Part shown: positions 15,175-37,067 of the stretch, piece after piece
Numbering within the stretch: position 1 is the first letter of the stretch
How the letters are laid out: each line of letters begins with the position of its first letter
NCBI GenBank assembly: GCA_947454395.1
Contig: CANGLG010000002.1
Span: 1-37,067, forward strand
DNA from: Flavobacteriales bacterium
GTDB taxonomy: Bacteria > Bacteroidota > Bacteroidia > Flavobacteriales_D > Crocinitomicaceae
Length of the DNA stretch: 37,067 bases
Direction: 5' to 3'
Position numbers and translations under genes: made by a program
The notes under the pieces: model-generated
What the model was told of the DNA's origin: nothing
The model's input: only the letters and a program-made list of their open reading frames with translations
The model's database searches: none

Positions 15175-18100
15175 ATGGTTTTATTAAAAAAGACATATTC
15201 CTTAAAAAAGCAACAAATATTGTTGGTGCTATTTTTTTTAATTAGCACAAGGTTATTTGCTCAAAATACACCTGACCTCCCATTTCCTTTAATAAATCCA
15301 CTTAATCCAAGCCAAAACTTACCACAAAGTTTTGATTTAGGAGATCCAACAAGTTTAAAACAATCCATTGTTTACGACCCTATTTCTGGCACTTATATTT
15401 TCTCGCAAACGATGGGTAACGGTTTAAATTTCAGAAATCCATCAGCAATGACGTTGGATGAGTATCTGGAATACGAACGAAAAAAGTCCATGACGCAGGA
15501 CTGGCAAGAAATTATTGAGGAAGAAACTGCAGAAAACAGGAATTTTGAGTTGCCAATTAAAATAGGAAGTAAAATTTTTGAAAGTTTCTTCGGATCGGAT
15601 GAAATCAAAATTATTCCTGGTGGGAACTTAGAGCTTTTCCTAGGGATTAATCACTCACGAATCGATAACCCGATGCTACCAATGCGTCAAAGGAAAATCA
15701 CTCGTTTTGATTTTAATCAAAATATTAATTTAGACATTACCGGACAGATTGGAACTAAACTTAAAATCAATACGAAATATAACACTGGCGCCACCTTTGA
15801 TTTTGACAACATTTCCAAACTAGAACATACTGGAAATGAAGACCAAATTCTTCAAAAAATTGCATTAGGGAACGTTTCGTTGGATCTTCCGACTAGTTTA
15901 ATTCAAGGTTCTCAAACATTGTTCGGAGCAAAAACACAATTAAAATTTGGGCGATCAACTATCGACCTAATTGCTGCATCCTCCAAAGGAAAAAGAACTG
16001 AAATTAATGTTACAGGAAAAGCTCAAACACAAACGTTTGAAGTCACTGCCGACAATTACGAAGCAAATAAACACTACTTCCTAAATCTTTATCATCAACA
16101 ACATTATGATACAGCAATGTCTACTTTGCCGGTAGTTAATTCGACTGTTTTCATAACCCGTATCGAAGTATGGGTAACAAATCGCTCAAACGTAACAGAA
16201 AACACAAGGAATATTGTAGCATTTGCAGATTTAGGAGAATCAAAACCAGAAAACTGGCAAGGAAATCCAGGCGGAGCATCAGGAAGCGAAATACCTGACA
16301 ATCAATCCAATAACTTGTATGACTGGGCCTCAAACCAACCGTTAATAAGAGGTTTTTCCAATTCAGTTAGTACTTTAAGTGCACAAGTAACCTCTCCGGG
16401 TCCATTTCTTCAGGCAATTGAATATGAAAAAGTTGAAAATGCACGTCGCCTAACAGAAACCGATTTTTCATTTAATGCCTTGCTTGGTTATATCTCTTTG
16501 AATCAAGCACTGAATAACGATGAAGTTTTAGCTGTTTCCTATGAATATACTTACAGAGGCCAAACTTATCAAGTTGGCGAATTCTCAACAGATGGCTCAA
16601 ACGGCAAGGAAGCTTTGATTTTGAAACTTTTAAAACCAACAATAACAAATCCTAATAATAAGATTTGGGACTTGATGATGAAAAATGTTTATTCAATTGG
16701 TGCATATAATGTTGACCAATCTGGTTTCAAAATCAATATTTTATACAACAATCCCGATCAATCGATAAATATCCCCTATTTTCCTCTAGACGGAGTAAAA
16801 GACAAGCAATTAGTTACTTTGCTTGACATGGATAAAATCAATCAAAATAATCAACCTTTTTCAGATGGTGTATTTGATTTTTCGCCATTTAATCAAGTAA
16901 ATAATAAAATTGATAACGGAGGAACTATCAATAAAAAAAGCGGACGTATCTTCTTTTCAACGGTAGAACCATTTGGTAAAACATTGGCAAAGAAATTAGA
17001 TGCAGTAAACATTCCAACAACAACCGTAAATAGAGTCTCTTTTTATGAACTTTATGACTCAACAAAAACAGCCGCTCAACAGATTCCAAGTAAAAACCGA
17101 TTTACTTTAAAAGGTGAATATCAGTCATCCGTAAGCTCCGAAATTCCACTAAACACCCTGAATGTTCCTCAAGGTGCTGTTAGCGTTACTGCTGGAGGAA
17201 TGAAACTTGTGGAAGGAACAGATTATACAGTTGATTACAATTTAGGACGCGTAAAAATTATAAATACGGGAATACTTGAATCCAATACACCGATAAAAAT
17301 CTCAATTGAAAGTAACTCAGTATTTGGTTTTCAAGCACGATCCATGATGGGAGGACACTATCAATATCGTTTCAGTGACCGAATCAAAATTGGTGCAACT
17401 TGGGTTCGAATGATGGAAAGACCGGTAACCCAAAAAGTAGACTTTGGAAGCGAACCTTTTAAAAACAATGTTATTGGTGCTGATTTTGCTATTAGAACTG
17501 ATTTGCCTTTTCTAACGAAATTGGTAGACATGTTGCCCGTTATCTCCACAAATCAAATGTCTACACTTTCACTTACTGGTGAAGTAGCACATTTAATCCC
17601 TGGACAACCAAGAGCAATTAATAAATCTGGTACTTCCTATGTAGATGATTTTGAAGCAAGTCAAAGTGCAATTGACTTACGTTCAGTGAATGCATGGAAA
17701 TTGGCATCTGTTCCTCAAGGTCAACCTGATTTATTTCCTGAAACCACAAAAAAAGATTTATCTGTCGGATTTAAACGATCAAAGACAGCTTGGTATGTCA
17801 TTGATCCTTTATTCTACCAAAGTAATACACTCACTCCTCAACACATTAAACAGAATCCTCAAATGCTTTCTGATAGCCGAATGAGGCTTGTGAATCAAGT
17901 TGATATTTTTCCGAATTTACAACAGCAATATGGTTCTATTCCTAACATTCCAATCTTAGAATTAGCATACTATCCTAAAGAAAGAGGAATGTACAATTAT
18001 GACACTACAAATACAGTTGATTCTGCAGGGTATTTTATTAATCCTGAAAATCGATGGGGTGGTATTCAACGTGGATTAACTACAAACGATTTCGAATTAG

Positions 18101-21100
18101 CAAATGTTGAATTTATTCAATTCTGGGTGTTAGACCCTTTCAATCAAGATGCTGAAAACTCCGATCCGAACACGGCAATGACAGGTGGTGATTTATACTT
18201 CAATCTTGGAAATATTTCTGAGGATGTCTTACCAGATTCAAGAAAAAGTTTTGAAAACGGATTGCCAGCATCTGCTGCTGTTTTGGGTGATAATCTTGAT
18301 ACAACACTTTGGTCAAAAGTTTCTACGCAGCAAATTGTTATCAATGCTTTCGATATGGATCCACAATCACGACTCAATCAAGATGTCGGAATTGACGGAT
18401 GGAAAAGCGAAGAAGAGAAAACTGCATATAACAATTTTGTCGCTTGGGTTCAAAATAATACAACTCTTACTCCTCAGGCAAAAGCTAAATTAATAGCAGA
18501 TCCTTCAAATGATGATTATAAATATTATTTGGATGATAATTATGATACTCAGTCATTAGATATTTTAAAAAGATATAAAAAATATAACGGAATGGAGGGA
18601 AACTCCCCTACCACAGAAATGTCAGATACCGCAAATTCCTCCAGTTATCCTACTCAAGCTACAATACAACCCGATAATGAAGATATCAACCAAGACAATA
18701 ACCTATCTGAAAGCGAAAGCTATTTTCAATATCGTGTGAGCATGCGTCCGAATGATATGGTTCAAGTAGGACAAAATTATATTACAAACAAACAAGTTTA
18801 TACGAACGGAAATAAAACTGAAACATGGTATCAGTTTAAAGTTCCAATTAGAGATTTTGAGAAAAAAGTGAATGGGATTCAAGATTTCAGATCGATTCGT
18901 TTTATGCGAATGTTTTTGAAAAATTTTGATGAAGAAGTTGTTCTTCGATTCGCTAGATTAGAGTTAATTCGTGGTGAATGGAGGAGATATTACAAAGATC
19001 TTTCCCAACCTGGACTAAGTATCCAGACGGATCCAAATCTTACAACTTTTAACATTGCAGCCGTAAATGTTGAGGAAAATTCACAAAGATCTCCTATTAA
19101 TTATGTTGTTCCTCCAGGAATTACAAGGGAAATTGACCCTTCTCAAGTTTACCAGCGCCAAATGAATGAACAAGCTTTGGTTCTTGAAGTTTGCAATTTA
19201 CAAGATGGTGATGCTAGAGCCGCTTATAAAAACGTAACTTTTGATGTTCGTACTTATAAAAAACTAAAAATGTTTGTTCATGCTGAGGCTGCGCAACAAA
19301 ACCAACTTAAGGACAACGAACTTACGATGTTTATTCGTTTAGGGACTGACTATGTTGAAAATTACTACGAATATGAATTTCCCATGAAAATTACGAATTG
19401 GGGAGAAACAACACCTGAAGCAATTTGGCCAGAAGGAAATAACATGGAGATTGTTTTCGACGACTTACTCGACATTAAAAAAGAAAGAAATGCTAAAATT
19501 GAAAACGGTGCAGCAGGCGTTTCTTATGTGATTGAATACTCAAAGCAAGATCCGAATAATTCTGAACGAAAAATAAAGGTAAAAGGTAGCCCGAATTTAC
19601 AAGCCATGAAAACAATCATGGTAGGTGTTAGAAATCCTTTGAAAAGCGACCCAGATAATCCATGGAAACCAGATGATGGAGATGCGGAATGTGCAATTGT
19701 TTGGATCAATGAAATGCGTTTAACCGATTTCGTTAGTGAAGGTGGTTCGGCAGCAGTTGGTCAAATGCAATTACAAGTTGCAGATTTTGCAAATATCAAT
19801 GCCTCCGGTAATTATTCAGGTATAAACTGGGGAAGTGTTGAAAGTCGCGTTCAAGAACGTCAACGAAACGAGCGAATCGGAGTAGACTTGAATTCTACGG
19901 TTCAATTAGGCCAGTTTTTCGGGAAACAAGCGCGTGTATCTTTACCTTTTTTCTATGGTTACTCACTGGGAATTGTAAATCCAGAATACGACCCATTCAA
20001 TCCTGATGTTAAGTTGGCTGATTACGACCTTGCCACAAGAAAAGATAAGGCAAAAGCGGGACAAGAATTTAACGAAAGAAGATCCTTCAATTTTACAAAT
20101 ATTAGAAAAGAGGCTAAAGCTGGAGCAAAACCTCACTTCTGGAATGTTTCCAACTGGTCTGCTACTTATGCTTATGCTCAAAACATGAAGCGTGACTTTA
20201 ACATCAATTATGATCGTACAAAGACATGGACTGGTGCCTTAAATTACAACTTTACTTTCCCTGGAAAAGCGATTGAACCATTTAAAAAATGGAAACCTGT
20301 ACAAAAATCGAAATGGTTCCAAATTGTAAAAGACTTCAATTTGTATCTGATGCCCAAGAATATTTCATTTACCAATGATTATTCAAGGATTTATAATGAA
20401 CGACAAGTAAGAAACAACATTGTTCCTGACTATAAATTTGAACCTGTTTATTTAAAAAGATTTGACTGGAATAGAAATTACCAAATTGGTTACGATTTAA
20501 CGAAAAATATCAAAGCTACTTATACAGCTACGAACAAAGCCATATTTGCTGAAGGAAATCACGGTGTTGACCGAGTGACTAACCCAGAAGGTTACCGCGA
20601 ATTTATGGATACCATTCGAAACCAAATACAAACTTTTGGTAAAACAATGGACTACACCCACAATTACAACTTGAGTGTAACGATACCTTTTGACAAATTC
20701 CCTTTAACGGACTGGTTGAATGTAAATGCAAAATACAGCGGCACATACAATTGGCAGCGAGCTCCATTGGCCCAATCAGAATTTGGAAATACAATTCAGA
20801 ACAACAGATCGATTAACATGACTGCTCAGGCAAACATGATGACTGTTTACAATAAAATACCAATGTTCAAAAAAGTCATTGGAGACAATAAAGGTCCAAG
20901 AGCTACTGTTCCGACAAGAGGATTAGTTGGAGACGGAAGTAATAAATCACAGGGAAATAAAACGGAAGAAAAAACAACACTTGAAGAATTCAAGCCGAAA
21001 AAACCAATTGAAGAAATGACTCCAAAAGAGTTAAAACAATATGAACGAGAGAAAAAAAGATGGGAGCGCAAGCAGAAACGTGAACAGCGTAAAAAAGAAA

Positions 21101-22515
21101 AAGAAAAGGAAAAATTAAATCCTGCGGTTGGATTCTTTGCTCGACTATTAATGACTGTTAGAAATGTATCGGGGACCTACGCATTAAACGATGGGACTTT
21201 ATTGCCTGGTTACTCACAGGAATCAAGTATCCTTGGAATGAATGGTTCGGATTTCGGATTAACTAATTTCGTTTTCGGTAAACAAGGCTATGACATTCTC
21301 GGAAGAACAAATGGATATAACGTTGCAAATTTCTCTCGTGACAACAATTGGCTTGTTCAAAATGAAAACATGAATAAACAATTTACAACAACGCACTCTG
21401 CTAATCTTCAAATGAAAGCAACATTAGAACCTTTGAAAGATTTCAATGTGAACATGAATCTGAATAGAAATTACAGCAGAAATTCCGGTGAATTCTATCG
21501 TTGGAATCCCACAAGTAATTCATTTGAAAGTCAAAGTAAATTCGAAACAGCGACCCTAACCTACTCAACGGTAACCTTGGGAACAGCTTTTGCAAAACAA
21601 GGAAGAGAATATCAATCAGAAGTTTTCCAAAAAATGCTTGATAACAGAAGTGAAGTTTCTAAACTTATTGGTGCAGGAAACTCAAACTCTTCATTACTAC
21701 CGAATGGGTTTTATGACGGGTACTCAGGATCTCAACAAGAGGTTGTCATAGGAGCATTTCTATCGGCCTATACCAATTCATCCGTAAATCAAAGAAGTAT
21801 AAATCCTTTAAACAATATTCCACTACCAAACTGGACCGTAAATTACAGTGGATTAACAAAATTTGACTTCACAAAAAAATTCTTAAAAACGTTTACATTA
21901 AAACATTCCTATAGTTCTACAGTGACAGTTGGGGGCATGCAAACGAATTTAAATGCAACTTTTGATGTAAATGGCAACGCGAATGCACTCGACCTCAATC
22001 ACAATTACATCGCACCAATGCAGGTTCAAAATATTACAGTTTCAGAACGATTTGCCCCACTAATTGGTGTGAATGCAACGTGGACTTTATTTGGCAAAAC
22101 TTTAATGACGAACTTCGAATATAAAAAGGATAGAAATGCAACTTTGTCTTTAGCAAATAATCAAATTTCAGAGAATTTAGCAAAAGAAATTGTTGTAGGA
22201 ACCACATTTACTTATCCAAAATTAAAATTACCGATTAGATCTATTAAAGCAAGTGATTTAATTGTCAATATGAATTTAGGTTTCAAAGATAATCTAACAG
22301 TTATTCGTAAAGTTGTTGAAAACACTAATCAAGCAACAGCAGGGCAAAAAACAGTTAACATTAAAATTGATGCTAACTACAAGCTCACTGAATATCTTAC
22401 GGCTATTTTCAATTATGAACAAGGAATCATCAATCCAAAAGTTCAAACGGCAGTTCCAACAGGAAACCTGAAAATTAACTTTGCGATTCGTTTCGACTTG
22501 AATGGATTAAGATGA
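15175..22515 (+). CDS. sprA: SprA, outer-membrane translocon of type IX secretion / gliding motility
   Basis: A 2446-residue protein, close to the roughly 2400 residues of Flavobacterium SprA. SprA (Sov in Porphyromonas) is the giant 36-strand barrel through which type IX substrates cross the outer membrane. Residues about 1-30 form a signal peptide ending RLFAQ. The early segment FDLGDPTSLKQSIVYDPISGTYIF and the repeated pattern of long aromatic-rich beta strands to the final NFAIRFDLNGLR (which ends like an outer-membrane barrel) fit the family. A highly charged Lys/Glu/Arg helix (about 1942-1982, KRWERKQKREQRKKEKEKEK) interrupts the barrel and probably forms a periplasmic or inserted coil. 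The gene follows ruvA by 1 bp and overlaps the acetyltransferase start by 4 bp. The window contains a likely substrate, the YHYH protein. Confidence 0.95.
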   Translation: MVLLKKTYSLKKQQILLVLFFLISTRLFAQNTPDLPFPLINPLNPSQNLPQSFDLGDPTSLKQSIVYDPISGTYIFSQTMGNGLNFRNPSAMTLDEYLEYERKKSMTQDWQEIIEEETAENRNFELPIKIGSKIFESFFGSDEIKIIPGGNLELFLGINHSRIDNPMLPMRQRKITRFDFNQNINLDITGQIGTKLKINTKYNTGATFDFDNISKLEHTGNEDQILQKIALGNVSLDLPTSLIQGSQTLFGAKTQLKFGRSTIDLIAASSKGKRTEINVTGKAQTQTFEVTADNYEANKHYFLNLYHQQHYDTAMSTLPVVNSTVFITRIEVWVTNRSNVTENTRNIVAFADLGESKPENWQGNPGGASGSEIPDNQSNNLYDWASNQPLIRGFSNSVSTLSAQVTSPGPFLQAIEYEKVENARRLTETDFSFNALLGYISLNQALNNDEVLAVSYEYTYRGQTYQVGEFSTDGSNGKEALILKLLKPTITNPNNKIWDLMMKNVYSIGAYNVDQSGFKINILYNNPDQSINIPYFPLDGVKDKQLVTLLDMDKINQNNQPFSDGVFDFSPFNQVNNKIDNGGTINKKSGRIFFSTVEPFGKTLAKKLDAVNIPTTTVNRVSFYELYDSTKTAAQQIPSKNRFTLKGEYQSSVSSEIPLNTLNVPQGAVSVTAGGMKLVEGTDYTVDYNLGRVKIINTGILESNTPIKISIESNSVFGFQARSMMGGHYQYRFSDRIKIGATWVRMMERPVTQKVDFGSEPFKNNVIGADFAIRTDLPFLTKLVDMLPVISTNQMSTLSLTGEVAHLIPGQPRAINKSGTSYVDDFEASQSAIDLRSVNAWKLASVPQGQPDLFPETTKKDLSVGFKRSKTAWYVIDPLFYQSNTLTPQHIKQNPQMLSDSRMRLVNQVDIFPNLQQQYGSIPNIPILELAYYPKERGMYNYDTTNTVDSAGYFINPENRWGGIQRGLTTNDFELANVEFIQFWVLDPFNQDAENSDPNTAMTGGDLYFNLGNISEDVLPDSRKSFENGLPASAAVLGDNLDTTLWSKVSTQQIVINAFDMDPQSRLNQDVGIDGWKSEEEKTAYNNFVAWVQNNTTLTPQAKAKLIADPSNDDYKYYLDDNYDTQSLDILKRYKKYNGMEGNSPTTEMSDTANSSSYPTQATIQPDNEDINQDNNLSESESYFQYRVSMRPNDMVQVGQNYITNKQVYTNGNKTETWYQFKVPIRDFEKKVNGIQDFRSIRFMRMFLKNFDEEVVLRFARLELIRGEWRRYYKDLSQPGLSIQTDPNLTTFNIAAVNVEENSQRSPINYVVPPGITREIDPSQVYQRQMNEQALVLEVCNLQDGDARAAYKNVTFDVRTYKKLKMFVHAEAAQQNQLKDNELTMFIRLGTDYVENYYEYEFPMKITNWGETTPEAIWPEGNNMEIVFDDLLDIKKERNAKIENGAAGVSYVIEYSKQDPNNSERKIKVKGSPNLQAMKTIMVGVRNPLKSDPDNPWKPDDGDAECAIVWINEMRLTDFVSEGGSAAVGQMQLQVADFANINASGNYSGINWGSVESRVQERQRNERIGVDLNSTVQLGQFFGKQARVSLPFFYGYSLGIVNPEYDPFNPDVKLADYDLATRKDKAKAGQEFNERRSFNFTNIRKEAKAGAKPHFWNVSNWSATYAYAQNMKRDFNINYDRTKTWTGALNYNFTFPGKAIEPFKKWKPVQKSKWFQIVKDFNLYLMPKNISFTNDYSRIYNERQVRNNIVPDYKFEPVYLKRFDWNRNYQIGYDLTKNIKATYTATNKAIFAEGNHGVDRVTNPEGYREFMDTIRNQIQTFGKTMDYTHNYNLSVTIPFDKFPLTDWLNVNAKYSGTYNWQRAPLAQSEFGNTIQNNRSINMTAQANMMTVYNKIPMFKKVIGDNKGPRATVPTRGLVGDGSNKSQGNKTEEKTTLEEFKPKKPIEEMTPKELKQYEREKKRWERKQKREQRKKEKEKEKLNPAVGFFARLLMTVRNVSGTYALNDGTLLPGYSQESSILGMNGSDFGLTNFVFGKQGYDILGRTNGYNVANFSRDNNWLVQNENMNKQFTTTHSANLQMKATLEPLKDFNVNMNLNRNYSRNSGEFYRWNPTSNSFESQSKFETATLTYSTVTLGTAFAKQGREYQSEVFQKMLDNRSEVSKLIGAGNSNSSLLPNGFYDGYSGSQQEVVIGAFLSAYTNSSVNQRSINPLNNIPLPNWTVNYSGLTKFDFTKKFLKTFTLKHSYSSTVTVGGMQTNLNATFDVNGNANALDLNHNYIAPMQVQNITVSERFAPLIGVNATWTLFGKTLMTNFEYKKDRNATLSLANNQISENLAKEIVVGTTFTYPKLKLPIRSIKASDLIVNMNLGFKDNLTVIRKVVENTNQATAGQKTVNIKIDANYKLTEYLTAIFNYEQGIINPKVQTAVPTGNLKINFAIRFDLNGLR

Positions 22516-30099: not shown

Positions 30100-30996
30100 T
30101 TGCAGCGCTTTATTTTTTTCTTAATCCTTTTCTTAATTGCTCAGACGTTTGTAGCCCATAGTCAGATGATTAATAATTTGGAGGGAAATGCGTTTTCAGA
30201 TCAGCCTTTTTTCGACCGAGATTTCATCAAAACAAATAACATCAAATCCTTAGAGGGTCTATACTCTAAAAAGAAAGACGGAGATATAGTTCGTTCAACA
30301 AATGATTTTTTCAAATATGAATTTGACAGTTTAGGGAATTTATCACAAACGATTCAGGTAAGATCGAATGCAGGTAAAAAAGACACCTCTTTCAATTATT
30401 ACATTTACAACGATAATAACCAACTAATTACTCACAAAAAAACTGAAAGTGGTGGACTAACCGCTCTGCATTATATATTCGACAGCCTTTCTCGAATTAC
30501 CGGAATAGAACAAAGCAGAGAATTACTCGACTTAAAGGGCAATGTTCTACAATCTATATCTATCAATAAAGAAAGTATCCGATATTTTAAAACTGATAAG
30601 GGAATAAAAAAAGTTACATATAATAACTATGGTTTACCCTACATGGATGAATTTACTGTTTGGAATGAAGATGGTTATAAACTCGAAGCAATTCAAAAAT
30701 TACGGATGGCTTCAGCCGAATACAAAAAGAAATTCATTTACAATGAAAAGGGATTATTGGCTGCTATTCAAACCTTTTATAATTATTCGGAAAATCCAGT
30801 TCAGGAAATAACTTTTAAATACGACCATTTTGGAAATATAATTGAAAAAAAACACTTTAAAGAGGGCATTTTTATTGGTGAACTTCAAATAATTTATGAC
30901 AACAAAACGCAATTACTTGGTTCAACAATAGAGAAAATGGAAGGGAGCAATATGATGTATATTCTTAGATTTAATACCATCAAATTTTATAATTAA
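30100..30996 (+). CDS. Secreted protein with YD/RHS-like repeats
   Basis: A 298-residue protein of unknown function starting with TTG, 4 bp after glyS. The start is supported by a good signal peptide (residues 1-22, ending VAHSQ) that begins directly at the TTG. The mature part consists of repeated strand-turn-strand units with Tyr/Phe and Gly-Asn turns, such as FFKYEFDSLGNLSQTI, HYIFDSLSRITGIEQ, FIYNEKGLLAAIQTF and FKYDHFGNIIEKKHF, which resemble YD repeats of the RHS type but without a toxin or core domain. Such short proteins are common and uncharacterised in Bacteroidota. The coupling to glyS is probably incidental. It ends 155 bp before the giant repeat-protein gene. Confidence 0.65.
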   Translation: MQRFIFFLILFLIAQTFVAHSQMINNLEGNAFSDQPFFDRDFIKTNNIKSLEGLYSKKKDGDIVRSTNDFFKYEFDSLGNLSQTIQVRSNAGKKDTSFNYYIYNDNNQLITHKKTESGGLTALHYIFDSLSRITGIEQSRELLDLKGNVLQSISINKESIRYFKTDKGIKKVTYNNYGLPYMDEFTVWNEDGYKLEAIQKLRMASAEYKKKFIYNEKGLLAAIQTFYNYSENPVQEITFKYDHFGNIIEKKHFKEGIFIGELQIIYDNKTQLLGSTIEKMEGSNMMYILRFNTIKFYN

Positions 30997-31151: not shown

Positions 31152-34100
31152 ATGAAAAATTTCTACTTGGCCACATTAATCTTCATTTCGTTTTTTGCGA
31201 ACAGTCAAAAAGTTGATTATGACCACTCTTCAAAATGGTTTTTAGGATTTAACGTTGGTGGCACTTGGCAAACTACGGATGTAAAAAATCAGACTTCCGC
31301 AGGTTGGGGTTTAATATTAGGAAAATCCTTCAATTACGACTACGGTAAAGTTCTAAGCTTTGACCTTCGTGGTAGATATCTTCGCGGATATTGGTATGGA
31401 CAAGATTTAGATACTACCTCTTTGGCAAACTACGCTGGTACCAATGGAGCGTTAACTTCATACAAAGACCAATATGGATTTACAATAAATAATTTTCAAG
31501 CGGATGTGCATCGTTTGGCTCTAGAATTAGCAGTTCACTTGAACTCCATTACAGAAAAAACAGGATTCGATCCTTATGTTTTTGGTGGAGTCGGTGTCAC
31601 ATGGAAACAAACATATGGTGATTTATTCTTGAACGATTCAACTTCGTTATACAATTACTCTTCACTTATCGCAAATGGTCCAATTAACGCTTCTCAACTT
31701 GATGTTACGTTGGATAATATTTATGACTCTCCATTGGATGGTAGTAAAAAAACGTATAGTGCCTTTTTCATGCCGAGCCTTGGATTTGGATTAGGGTATC
31801 ACATTGGGAAAAGAACAACACTAGGGATAGAACACAAAACAACATTCACATTGAGAGATGATTTCGACGGTTATGTTTCCTCAACTCCAAGAGCAAAAAA
31901 TGACATTTACCATTACACATCTGCTTATTTGAAATTCAGATTTAAAGTCAGAGGTGATGGGTCTTCTAGCTCATCAAGTAATGGAATCGGGTCGAACAGC
32001 AATGGAAATATTTCAAATTTCACAACGAATTGTCCAGCTCCTGTTGTTTCTATAAATAATCAAAACAATCTGACTGTAAACAATACCTCTTTTAAAATTG
32101 AAGGGAAAATAACTGAAGTAACTTCAAATAATTCAATAACTATTTTACATAACAACAACCTGCCAGTAACTTTTACATTTAACTCAATTTCAAAAAGTTT
32201 TGAAGCTAACGTTACATTAAAACCTGGAATAAATACGTTTACAGTTAAAGCGGAAAACACTTGTGGTAAGGATTCAAAAACGCTAACTGTTAATTATGTT
32301 CTTTGCGATTTACCTACCGGGAATTTCACGAATCCAAGCAACAACCAAATATTAGTTCAAAATCCAAATTTTGTTATAAACGCTTTATTAAAAGGCATTC
32401 AGAATCCTGCAAATATTACTTTGTATCAAAATGGAACAATAATTAATACTCCAGGTTTTAATACAAATACTGGAATCTTGCAGTCAAATGTTGTATTGCA
32501 ACCGGGATTGAATACTTTCAAAATTGATTTTTCAAATAACTGTGGAACCGGAAGTATTTCAACAACTGTAAACTACAACAATTGTGTTGCTCCATCTATT
32601 CAATTCGTTACTCCAACAGCAGCAGGAACAACAGTTAATTCTTCAAATTTCAAAGTAACGGCACGAATTTCAAATTTGAACGATGGAAAACTGACTGTTT
32701 TGGTGAACGGCATAAATTGGACAAATTTCACAGTCAACAACGGTCAAGTAGAAATACCATTGACATTGAATGCAGGCAATAACACTATTTCACTTAACGT
32801 TACAAATGCCTGTGGAACAGATACCGAATCTACTTCCATAATTTATCTAACTTGTGACGCACCAATTGTATCAATCTCATCCCCAATTGCAAACTCTGTT
32901 GTTACAAATCCTGTTGTTTCATTAAAAGGGAAAGTTGAAAACGTAGCTGGAAAACAATTCATTAAAGTTCTATTGAATAATATCAACGTACCCGTTTTCA
33001 ACTACAATGCAACCACTAAACTAGTTGAGACCACGCTGACTTTAGTTCCTGGAAACAATACAATTACTATTTCTTCTACTAACAATTGTGGTTCAGATAT
33101 TGAAACTTTGAATATTGAATATGACGCTTGTAAAACACCCGTTGTAAGCATACAAAATTCAAATACTACGGTAACAAACAGCTCATTTATCTTGAATTCA
33201 ACTATTCAAAACATGCCTTCCTCTCAAGGAATTACACTTACTCAAAATGGATTACCCGTTAACTTCTCATATGTAAATGGAAATTTATCAAGCTCCGTTT
33301 CATTAAACCCTGGAGTAAATACATTTATTTTAACAGCAACAAGGCTATGTGGCACATCCTCTAAAACATTGGTTATAAATTACAATAATTGTGTTCCACC
33401 TGTAATAAGTTTATTAAATCCAGTTGCAGCTGGCATTACTGTTAACAATTCATTATACAACTTTAAGGCAACGGTGTCAAACATTACCTCAAATCAAGGC
33501 ATCACCTTTAAATTTAACGGAGTGAATGCACCATTTACTTTTACAAATGGACTTGTTCAAGCAAACTTGACATTGATAAATGGAAATAACAGTTTTCTTA
33601 TTGAAGCAAGCAACGCGTGTGGAACAGATAATGAATCCTCATCTGTAAATTTAGTAAACTGTACACCACCGCAAATTTCAGTTGTTAATCCTACTAATAA
33701 CGTTACAGTTACAAATTCAGGATTCAATTATCAAGCAACAATTTTAGGCGTGGCTAATGCAAGCGCGATTACATTTAAACAAAATGGACAAGCTAAAGCG
33801 TTCTCATTTATTAATGGGCAATTAAATTCTACTCTTTCACTTATTCCAGGTGCAAACAGCATCACATTAACAGTTATTAATGATTGTGGAAATGACATTG
33901 AAACGAGCGTAATCACTTACGACAATTGTGTTCCACCGGTAATCACAATTTCAAATCCAACACAATATACACTAACTACTACTAACAGTCAATTTCAAAT
34001 TCAGGCTCAAATAACAAATTCAACAGCTCAAGGAATTACATTAACTCAAAATGGAACAAATGCAGTTTATTCATTCCTAAACGGGACTTTAAATTCAACA

Positions 34101-36428
34101 TTGACACTTGTTCCCGGTAACAATACGATTGCAATTTCCTCATTAAATAGTTGTGGAAATGACGTGGAATTTATCAACGTTACATATAATAATTGTACTG
34201 CGCCACTTGTTAGTATTATTTCACCTGCAATTTCCGGCACAACTGTAAATACAGCCTCTTATAACTTCAAAGCATCAGTTCAAAATGTAACAAGCTTGCA
34301 GGGAATTATTCTAACAATGAATGGCACCATAATTCAAGGAGCAACCTTAAATAATGGAGTGATTTCTGCGAATGTAACATTAATACCTGGACTTAATTCA
34401 TTTTCAATTTCAGCAACAAATTTATGTGGTAATGATTCTAAAACAAGTACCATTAACTTTAATAATTGTACTGCTCCTGTTCTTAACTTAACGTCTCCCA
34501 CAAATACTGGTTTAACTGTTATAAATAGTGCATTTAATTTGACGGCATCGATTCAAAACATTTCTAGTATACAAGAAGTTTCAATTACTTTTAATGGTGC
34601 TCCAGTAACTAATGTAAACTTATCAAATGGTCAGATTGCAGCCTCAGTTAATCTTGTTCCTGGTGTAAATAATTTTTATTTGACAGCGACCAATAGTTGT
34701 GGAAATGATACAAAAAGCTTTACAATCATCTACGATAATTGTAAGGCACCATCAATTCAAATAAACACTCCAGCTACGAATGATCTTTCAGTAGTAAATT
34801 CGAATTACACATTTAACGCAAGTGTTCAAAACATGACAACTGCTCAAGGCATAGTTATGACTCTTAATGGAAATACAGTTTCTGGAATAAATTATTCAAA
34901 TGGTCAAATTTCAGCAAATGTGATTTTAACACCTGGATTAAATACTTTTGTAATTACAGCAACTAATGGGTGTGGGTCTGATACAAAAACGAAAACAATT
35001 ACTTTTAATAATTGTACGGTACCAGTTGTTTCAATTATCAATCCGACTTCGGGAAATAATAATGTGATTAATTCAAACTTTATTTTCTCAGGAACTGTTC
35101 AAAACATGAATTCGAGCGCCGGAATTGTTTTAACGTTAAATGGCAATCCTATTTCAAATGTAAGTTTCAGCAATGGTCAGGTTACCGCAAATGTTACATT
35201 GATTCCAGGTATAAACACGTTTTCACTAACCGCCTCTAATGCTTGTGGAAACGACAATGCCGTATCAACAATTACTTTTGATAATTGTGTGGCTCCTATT
35301 GTCAATTTCACAACAAACCCAATATCCGGAACTGTAACTTCCGCAACTACACTCTTACTTTCTGCAGAAATAATAAATTACAGCCCATCTACAGTATTAA
35401 CTGTTAAAGCAAATGGCAATATTGTCAACTCCTATAATAACAACAATGGAATTATTTCTAAAAATGTGAATTTACCAATTGGTACAATTAGTATTGAAAT
35501 TACAGCAAGTAATAACTGTGGTACTGACACAAAAACTTATACAATTACTAGATGTGACAGAGCTACTATTACTTTACAAAATCCTATATCAGAAGCATAT
35601 ACAACAACTAATTCTTCAGAAGTAATCATTTTCAATGTTACAAATGTAAGTTCATCGGAAATTTCAATTACTCAAAATGAAAATGCTTTGTCAGGATTTA
35701 CATTAACCGGAACAACTTACCAAGGTCAAGTAACTTTAATTAGCGGATTGAACACTTTTGATTTAAGTATAAATACGAATTGTAGTCAAGTTACAAAAAC
35801 TATAACCATTGAATATGTAGCACCATCAAGCCCAATTAATAATTCAGATGGTGGAACTAATAATAACGGTAACGGAACAGGTGGTTCAACAGACGGACAT
35901 GATAATAACGGGCATGGTAACAATACCGATGGAGTAGATTCCTCAAATCCAGGACAAGGCGGTGGTGGTCCAAATGGACAAACTGACACAAACGGAGGAG
36001 TGGACGATGAAAATGGTACTCAAAACTCTGGATCAAGCGGTTCGCAAAATTCAAATAATAACACTCCTACAAATGGAAATGGACCAAATTCAAATGGGAA
36101 TAACCCTCAAAATGGAAACGGTAATGGAAACAAAAATGCTAACTCCGGAAATGGTAATCAAAACCCAACAAAACCCGCCACGAATGTTATCAAACCAAAT
36201 CAGAATTCAAAACCTGAAAACACCAATAATGGTGGAAATAAACCTACTGTAAATAAACAGGTTACAACAAATCCAACACCTACAAATATTTCCAAACCTG
36301 AAAATTCGAATGGAGATGCGATGAAAGAAAATAATCAGAAAACTGAGCCTTCAAAACAAGGAACAGATATAAAAACCGAACCTCAAAAACCGGTAAATAA
36401 ACCTAAAGGAATTGGAGGAGGCAGATAA
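31152..36428 (+). CDS. Giant surface protein: barrel, 14 Ig-like repeats, Asn/Gly tail
   Basis: A 1758-residue protein of unknown function. Residues 1-18 are a signal peptide. Residues about 20-275 look like an eight-stranded outer-membrane barrel: WFLGFNVGGTWQT, DLRGRYLRGYW, YVFGGVGVTWKQ, FGLGYHIGKRTTLGIEHK and a final AYLKFRFKV. After a Ser/Asn linker, residues about 294-1555 hold 14 tandem units of about 90 residues, each starting C-x-x-P-x-[VI] and ending with an N-x-CG-[ND]-D-like strand. Two cysteines per unit suggest disulfides. The last 200 residues are an Asn/Gly/Ser-rich, then Lys/Pro-rich, disordered tail ending GIGGGR, with no type IX sorting or OmpA domain. The layout suggests a barrel-anchored adhesin or cell-envelope rod. 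It is a single gene with its own terminator. Confidence 0.8.
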   Translation: MKNFYLATLIFISFFANSQKVDYDHSSKWFLGFNVGGTWQTTDVKNQTSAGWGLILGKSFNYDYGKVLSFDLRGRYLRGYWYGQDLDTTSLANYAGTNGALTSYKDQYGFTINNFQADVHRLALELAVHLNSITEKTGFDPYVFGGVGVTWKQTYGDLFLNDSTSLYNYSSLIANGPINASQLDVTLDNIYDSPLDGSKKTYSAFFMPSLGFGLGYHIGKRTTLGIEHKTTFTLRDDFDGYVSSTPRAKNDIYHYTSAYLKFRFKVRGDGSSSSSSNGIGSNSNGNISNFTTNCPAPVVSINNQNNLTVNNTSFKIEGKITEVTSNNSITILHNNNLPVTFTFNSISKSFEANVTLKPGINTFTVKAENTCGKDSKTLTVNYVLCDLPTGNFTNPSNNQILVQNPNFVINALLKGIQNPANITLYQNGTIINTPGFNTNTGILQSNVVLQPGLNTFKIDFSNNCGTGSISTTVNYNNCVAPSIQFVTPTAAGTTVNSSNFKVTARISNLNDGKLTVLVNGINWTNFTVNNGQVEIPLTLNAGNNTISLNVTNACGTDTESTSIIYLTCDAPIVSISSPIANSVVTNPVVSLKGKVENVAGKQFIKVLLNNINVPVFNYNATTKLVETTLTLVPGNNTITISSTNNCGSDIETLNIEYDACKTPVVSIQNSNTTVTNSSFILNSTIQNMPSSQGITLTQNGLPVNFSYVNGNLSSSVSLNPGVNTFILTATRLCGTSSKTLVINYNNCVPPVISLLNPVAAGITVNNSLYNFKATVSNITSNQGITFKFNGVNAPFTFTNGLVQANLTLINGNNSFLIEASNACGTDNESSSVNLVNCTPPQISVVNPTNNVTVTNSGFNYQATILGVANASAITFKQNGQAKAFSFINGQLNSTLSLIPGANSITLTVINDCGNDIETSVITYDNCVPPVITISNPTQYTLTTTNSQFQIQAQITNSTAQGITLTQNGTNAVYSFLNGTLNSTLTLVPGNNTIAISSLNSCGNDVEFINVTYNNCTAPLVSIISPAISGTTVNTASYNFKASVQNVTSLQGIILTMNGTIIQGATLNNGVISANVTLIPGLNSFSISATNLCGNDSKTSTINFNNCTAPVLNLTSPTNTGLTVINSAFNLTASIQNISSIQEVSITFNGAPVTNVNLSNGQIAASVNLVPGVNNFYLTATNSCGNDTKSFTIIYDNCKAPSIQINTPATNDLSVVNSNYTFNASVQNMTTAQGIVMTLNGNTVSGINYSNGQISANVILTPGLNTFVITATNGCGSDTKTKTITFNNCTVPVVSIINPTSGNNNVINSNFIFSGTVQNMNSSAGIVLTLNGNPISNVSFSNGQVTANVTLIPGINTFSLTASNACGNDNAVSTITFDNCVAPIVNFTTNPISGTVTSATTLLLSAEIINYSPSTVLTVKANGNIVNSYNNNNGIISKNVNLPIGTISIEITASNNCGTDTKTYTITRCDRATITLQNPISEAYTTTNSSEVIIFNVTNVSSSEISITQNENALSGFTLTGTTYQGQVTLISGLNTFDLSINTNCSQVTKTITIEYVAPSSPINNSDGGTNNNGNGTGGSTDGHDNNGHGNNTDGVDSSNPGQGGGGPNGQTDTNGGVDDENGTQNSGSSGSQNSNNNTPTNGNGPNSNGNNPQNGNGNGNKNANSGNGNQNPTKPATNVIKPNQNSKPENTNNGGNKPTVNKQVTTNPTPTNISKPENSNGDAMKENNQKTEPSKQGTDIKTEPQKPVNKPKGIGGGR
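32031..35818 (+). repeat. Fourteen tandem ~270-bp repeats coding Ig-like units
   Basis: Counted by the recurrent Cys that opens each unit (CPAP, CDLP, CVAP, CDAP, CKTP, CVPP, CTPP, CVPP, CTAP, CTAP, CKAP, CTVP, CVAP, CDRA). The average period is about 270 bp. Units are diverged at DNA level, so the expansion is not recent; some neighbours (units 9-12) look more alike. Confidence 0.8.
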
Positions 36429-36502: not shown

Positions 36503-37067
36503 ATGGCGATTATTGGAAAAATACGTAATAACTCAATGATTATTATTATCGCATTTGTATTAGTTGGTTTTGCAATGCTTTATCAATCTTTTCAAACTGC
36601 AAATCCAAACTTCAGTCTTTTTGGAGGGAATGTTGAATACGGAATAGGAACCGTTTACGGTGAAAAAGTAGACGGAACTAAATACTCAGTTATCAGTTCT
36701 CGGATGCAGGAACAGGACAGAATGCAAGCACAGCAACAACAAAAAGAGTATTCTGAACGTGACATTGAAAGATCAAATGATAACTCATGGAGTATTATTG
36801 TAGATTCAATATTATTAAGTAAAGAATATGATGCCTTAGGAATTGATGTTACAGATCGTGAGTTTAATGCTTATTTAATGGCTACTGATGGATTTAATGT
36901 GCTTCAAGATTTGGCTCAATTTTTTACTGATTCTTTGACTGGTACAATTACAGATCAATCAACTATTAAAGGAAGACAAAAACTTCAAGCAACATTAAAT
37001 CAGTTAAAATCTAACAAAGATCCGCAAGCTGTTCAACAGTGGAATAATACAAAACAATACTACACAA
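36503..37067 (+). CDS. PpiD/SurA-like periplasmic peptidyl-prolyl isomerase, N-terminal part
   Basis: A gene cut by the window end and missing from the ORF track; 188 codons are visible. It starts MAIIGKIRNNSMIIIIAFVL, a short basic cytoplasmic start and one membrane helix (about 12-28), the standard start of Bacteroidota PpiD-type foldases. After it come an FGGNVEYGIGTVYGEKVDG strand pair and a long helical region (about 60-188; IIVDSILLSKEYDALGIDVTDREFNAYL) typical of the SurA-N-type chaperone domain. The parvulin isomerase domains should lie beyond the window. It would help fold outer-membrane proteins such as SprA and the barrel protein just upstream. The start is the first Met, 19 bp after a weak promoter box. 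Confidence 0.8.
   Translation, partial: MAIIGKIRNNSMIIIIAFVLVGFAMLYQSFQTANPNFSLFGGNVEYGIGTVYGEKVDGTKYSVISSRMQEQDRMQAQQQQKEYSERDIERSNDNSWSIIVDSILLSKEYDALGIDVTDREFNAYLMATDGFNVLQDLAQFFTDSLTGTITDQSTIKGRQKLQATLNQLKSNKDPQAVQQWNNTKQYYT

Follow-up and report, generated by a model that had tools for sequence, protein, structure and literature searches.

A predicted PorG-superfamily barrel followed by a rod of 14 Ig-like units in Crocinitomicaceae, and the direction in which the rod may face

How the outer membrane is attached to the cell wall, and how proteins are displayed without the T9SS, are both poorly known in Bacteroidota. The window, a stretch of 37,067 nucleotides from a Flavobacteriales bacterium of the family Crocinitomicaceae, carries at 31152-36428 (+) a complete ORF of 1758 aa, the coordinates and length of which are exact according to an ORF check, and the product has a barrel, an Ig rod and a disordered tail in that order. 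The question raised by this architecture is whether the rod points to the periplasm or to the outside. If inward, a PorG/OmpA-type barrel would be newly joined to an Ig rod that is directed to the wall and varies freely in length; if surface-exposed, the protein would reveal a previously undescribed export route.

The preliminary description of this DNA had proposed an N-terminal barrel, 14 cysteine-paired units and a tail of about 200 residues, first Asn/Gly-rich and then Lys/Pro-rich, and the features now delimited (Table 1) bear it out: homology and eight segments of alternating hydrophobicity agree with the barrel, the 28 Cys give exactly 14 pairs, and the tail counts 201 aa. The absence of a sorting or OmpA domain, also claimed there, was confirmed, as Pfam and NCBIfam model searches found no T9SS CTD, OmpA, SPOR, LysM or SLH domain in the window protein, and a scan of 55 relatives over their final 449 aa found none of these either; PF00691, the OmpA C-terminal peptidoglycan-binding domain, was absent from the window protein at E<=10 and likewise from the 55 relatives. 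The comparison of relatives that it had proposed recovered the same architecture with 2 to 24 units.

Table 1. Features of the rod gene, its product and its immediate neighbours (positions are those of the window; residues are those of the rod protein)
Feature	Position	Strand	Residues	Basis or remark
Secreted 298-aa protein, weak RHS/YD-repeat match	30100..30996	+		Upstream of the rod gene
Signal peptide	31152..31205	+	1-18	Predicted +1 residue is Gln19
Predicted PorG-superfamily outer-membrane barrel	31233..31946	+	28-265	Amphipathic pattern and profile homology
Eight predicted barrel strands			28-38, 51-60, 68-77, 114-130, 139-154, 204-217, 223-235, 252-265	Alternating hydrophobicity
Linker, Ser/Asn-rich, unconserved	31947..32030	+	266-293	Alignment information content
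Rod, 14 Ig-like units	32031..35822	+	294-1557	HMM, Cys spacing, alignment, AF2, Foldseek
Disordered tail	35823..36425	+	1558-1758 (201 aa)	Composition
SurA/PpiD-like peptidyl-prolyl isomerase gene, start	36503..37067	+		Cut at the contig end; 3' of the rod gene

The Q-rule for proteins exported by Bacteroidetes (PMC10653852) places a Gln directly after the signal peptide, and Gln19, which follows the predicted cleavage site and is unchanged in 41/41 relatives, fits this rule. The barrel region matched no Pfam model, and an AF2 model of residues 1-390, built on an alignment of only three sequences, had pLDDT <50 over residues 1-293; the barrel is supported by homology and by the in/out hydrophobic alternation, which runs through eight segments in 61 sequences. 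At the end of the last strand stands the aromatic sequence YLKFRF, which is similar to an internal OMP beta-signal.

The NCBIfam model T9SS_PorG (NF052316) gave the window protein a weak score of 26.1-30.5 bits against a cut-off of 130, and the window protein was ruled out as the PorG of this genome since a separate true PorG is encoded on contig C28 (138 bits). Comparison of profiles by hhalign, using a barrel profile from 30 relatives, aligned the whole barrel with PorG (probability 96.8, E 2e-10) and placed the SPOR/OmpA-type barrels of sister families as the closest found (probability 99.3, E 4e-20), these E-values being those of one-to-one comparisons. By this profile homology the window barrel is assigned to the PorG superfamily. 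Behind the barrel, the sister-family relatives carry TSP3 repeats and a SPOR domain (PF05036) in L146 and an OmpA domain (PF00691) in L150. Proteins of ~700 aa that consist of a PorG-like barrel, TSP3 repeats and SPOR domain(s), and that lie near Pfam DUF6089, were observed at L146-L149 and L151, all from sister families. SPOR-type and rod-type proteins occur together in several genera and their distributions are not complementary, which ruled out the rod protein as a replacement for the SPOR-type protein.

Unit starts in the window rod are spaced 87-93 residues apart, and the cysteine pairs run from 294/371 to 1468/1544, with no Cys beyond residue 1544. Each unit has one Cys at its start and the other in an NxCG turn, and the aligned units share invariant C, P, N, L, G and CG positions. 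Two tandem units modelled by AF2 with window-only rows reached a mean pLDDT of 92.7, and the best PDB folds returned by Foldseek for this model were those of Z1Z2, a tandem of Ig domains from titin (E 7e-10, TM ~0.65), with Ig-like domains of mycobacterial LdtMt2 among the lower-ranked matches; units of some relatives also pass the cut-off for Pfam Big_7 and Glucodextran_B. The rod units are predicted with high confidence to have the Ig fold. By Ig geometry the two Cys, one before strand A and the other in the last turn, would lie at the same end of the unit, so that a disulfide within the unit is plausible; in several relatives the unit Cys are few or absent.

A rod-unit search of 40 genomes gave, among the matches listed, hits only within the rod ORF or its contig fragments, including all 14 unit matches of the window genome inside the one gene, and no match in the 4 genomes without the barrel gene. 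Among the matches listed, the unit was seen only in the barrel-bearing protein. Rod and tail change faster than the barrel, and unit number can differ as widely as 14 versus 2 in close relatives with 76% barrel identity. Compared with L043 the window protein reaches 57% each in rod and tail and 63% in the barrel, and compared with L037 the values are 46% for the rod, 33% for the tail and 74% for the barrel; the nearest relative is thus L043 for rod and tail and L037 for the barrel, suggesting exchange of rod and tail between lineages.

The window tail is N/G-rich (with NNGHGNNTDGVDSSNPGQG), then K/P-rich, and ends in GIGGGR. Tails differ completely between genera, their composition being N/G plus K/P, K/P, TolA-like A/K/E or T/G, and some hold collagen-like or Cys-rich modules. 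The K/P and A/K/E tracts recall TonB, TolA and segments that span the wall, a likeness taken as a lead only. The final 60 residues are net basic in 54/58 sequences, Gly and Lys/Arg both occur within the last six residues in 45/58, and the combined p-value of 5e-36 for this C-terminal motif ignores relatedness and is not usable as a probability. Nearly all tails are thus basic at the end, most often with a Gly-Lys/Arg tip, which suggests that they bind the wall electrostatically and supports contact with peptidoglycan or another acidic polymer. Lpp-like cross-linking through a C-terminal Lys is unlikely, as the last residue among the 58 tails is R in 18, K in 16 and N in 9.

An AsmA-like protein of the window genome (L156:1090-3756, G000 contig 25) ends in GKGGGK; its orthologues are without this end, and a GGGK/R end as a genome-wide motif was dismissed as coincidence. 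The peptide NNGHGNNxDGxDxSNPGxGxGGPNG is conserved inside the low-complexity tails of different genera (window ~35860-35990, L043, L047, L066 and L068) and is a possible metal-binding element. In place of the tail, L058, L070 and L071 carry small Cys-paired modules in tandem (ICxxG...IKESQWxxYxxxGAxxGxC), for which no Pfam name was noted.

Judged by analogy with the barrel homologues, the rod is most likely periplasmic and directed toward the cell wall. SPOR and OmpA domains bind peptidoglycan. PorG of F. johnsoniae has eight predicted strands, and the cysteines of its C-terminal tail are disulfide-bonded to periplasmic GldK (PMC12635249). Homology to PorG with its periplasmic tail and to the SPOR/OmpA-bearing barrels argues that the chain after the barrel would be periplasmic as well, and a periplasmic rod may also be favoured by the linker, which is unconserved (mean information 1.49 bits, no position reaching 90% identity) and in this appears unlike one that crosses a barrel lumen.

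An inward-facing envelope tether or spacer is the best reading of the protein, with about even confidence. The PorG-type barrel would sit in the outer membrane with OmpA-like topology, both of its ends opening on the periplasmic side. Past it the chain would continue in the periplasm as a series of Ig domains pinned by disulfides, and the flexible basic tail would touch peptidoglycan or a target located there or further in. Rod and charged tail would take the place of the OmpA or SPOR module with which the related barrels bind the wall, and we hypothesize wall contact and a function as outer-membrane-to-wall tether or spacer. The tether is weakened by the finding of no known peptidoglycan-binding domain among the 55 relatives scanned, by a SPOR-type distribution that is not complementary and by the variation in unit number from 2 to 24. 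One Ig domain is ~4 nm long, so 14 extended units would measure ~60 nm, which is longer than the usual periplasm and counts against an inward rod.

As an inward tether or spacer, the protein can be set beside several known systems, and no published description of the protein itself was found in the literature searched. With PorG (NF052316) it shares a homologous full-length barrel and a chain that goes on past the last strand, whereas the tail of PorG is short and bears Cys, the window protein having instead the 14-unit rod and a Cys-free tail, and the 26-30 bits of the window protein stay below the PorG cut-off. The barrel-TSP3-SPOR and barrel-OmpA proteins have the same part order and the closest barrels, but end in wall-binding domains rather than in an Ig rod and basic tail. 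OmpA/OprF likewise begin with a small barrel followed by a linker and a C-terminal part predicted to be periplasmic, and the rod proteins differ from them by the long Ig rod and by the lack of an OmpA_C domain in any relative scanned. SlpA/OmpM are outer-membrane-to-wall connectors (PMC9388160, PMC10628300), and the periplasmic span of Deinococcus SlpA is about 29 nm (PMC9388160). If the rod is periplasmic, the likeness would lie in a barrel plus a long periplasmic stalk as tether; SlpA/OmpM differ in their trimeric coiled coil and SLH domain with the stalk N-terminal to the barrel, while the Ig rod of the window protein is C-terminal and no SLH is present.

The opposite orientation, in which the barrel would anchor an Ig rod that reaches the outside via an autotransporter-like hairpin or another route and serves as a non-T9SS adhesin or spacer, is possible rather than probable. 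It is kept alive by the length of the extended rod relative to a normal periplasm, by a unit number that varies freely even between close relatives, by fast rod and tail evolution and rod/barrel discordance, as often found in surface proteins, by the collagen-like or Cys-rich modules of some tails, and by a T9SS type B surface pair that often adjoins the gene. The PorG-type barrel speaks against it, since the tail of the characterised relative PorG is periplasmic (PMC12635249), and about eight strands would, by analogy with OmpA, leave the lumen without room for a passing chain; neither a CTD in the window protein or 55 relatives nor a conserved linker was found, and among the matches listed no other protein of these genomes carries the unit. 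The stronger form, a small PorG-type barrel that exports its own Ig rod without a type IX signal, through or beside the eight-stranded barrel, as a family-wide core surface rod, is doubtful.

The intimin barrel has 12 strands. Inverse autotransporters (intimin/invasin, type Ve) resemble the window protein in having an N-terminal barrel followed by Ig-like domains, but no inverse-autotransporter Pfam model matched the window protein at E<=10, only about 8 strands are predicted, the linker is unconserved and of low complexity, and there is no lectin cap; from these features the window barrel is judged not to be of the inverse-autotransporter kind. The linker of intimin is, by comparison, a defined segment through the barrel pore (PMC13078405). 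The inverse-autotransporter-like route considered in the preliminary description has accordingly lost ground to the PorG-superfamily assignment, and the homology to a periplasmic family that it had named as contrary evidence was found for the barrel, covering the barrel only.

The family Crocinitomicaceae comprises freshwater and marine bacteria and includes the culturable Fluviicola. A barrel homologue was found in 199/240 of its genomes, and in 138/151 good ones, the rod gene almost always being present once per genome; barrel homologues also occur in the sister families f2, f7, f9 and f12. Such near-universal occurrence in single copy speaks for a housekeeping role in the envelope. The orthologue assigned to Fluviicola taffensis (G061:C1:1044549-1045349) has 1615 aa. 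Plasmid searches returned an unrelated Ig protein only, and no relatives were found on viral contigs.

Directly 3' of the rod gene, a SurA/PpiD-like gene is located at 28/41 loci, and the gene for the RHS/YD-like 298-aa protein adjoins the rod gene at 11/41. A T9SS type B CTD gene is divergent from the rod gene at about 25/41 loci, in 24 of them with a PorP/SprF gene, and in the window's clade glyS and the YD-like gene are found in place of this pair. PorP-like proteins keep type B substrates on the cell surface (PMC9143113). A role as T9SS/gliding accessory, in which the barrel would couple to the moving GldK/GldN track like PorG and SprF, rod and tail would reach the track or wall, and the protein would serve the PorP/SprF and type B substrate encoded divergently from it, draws on the PorG superfamily, on that neighbour pair and on the disulfide linkage of PorG and SprF to GldK (PMC12635249), but is improbable given a window tail without Cys, a PorG encoded separately by the same genome, the different neighbours in the window's clade and the scarcity of unit Cys in several relatives.

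At L056:13111-15386 and ~24 other loci the divergent pair consists of a type B CTD protein of ~430 aa and a PorP/SprF barrel. The PorP beside the rod gene has a Cys-bearing C-terminal tail (CPLFE) in most genera, that of the window's genus being without it, and this Cys recalls, by analogy, the SprF cysteines that bond GldK. Elsewhere in the window, 15175-22515 encodes an exported protein of 2446 aa whose sequence suggests SprA, the translocon of the T9SS.
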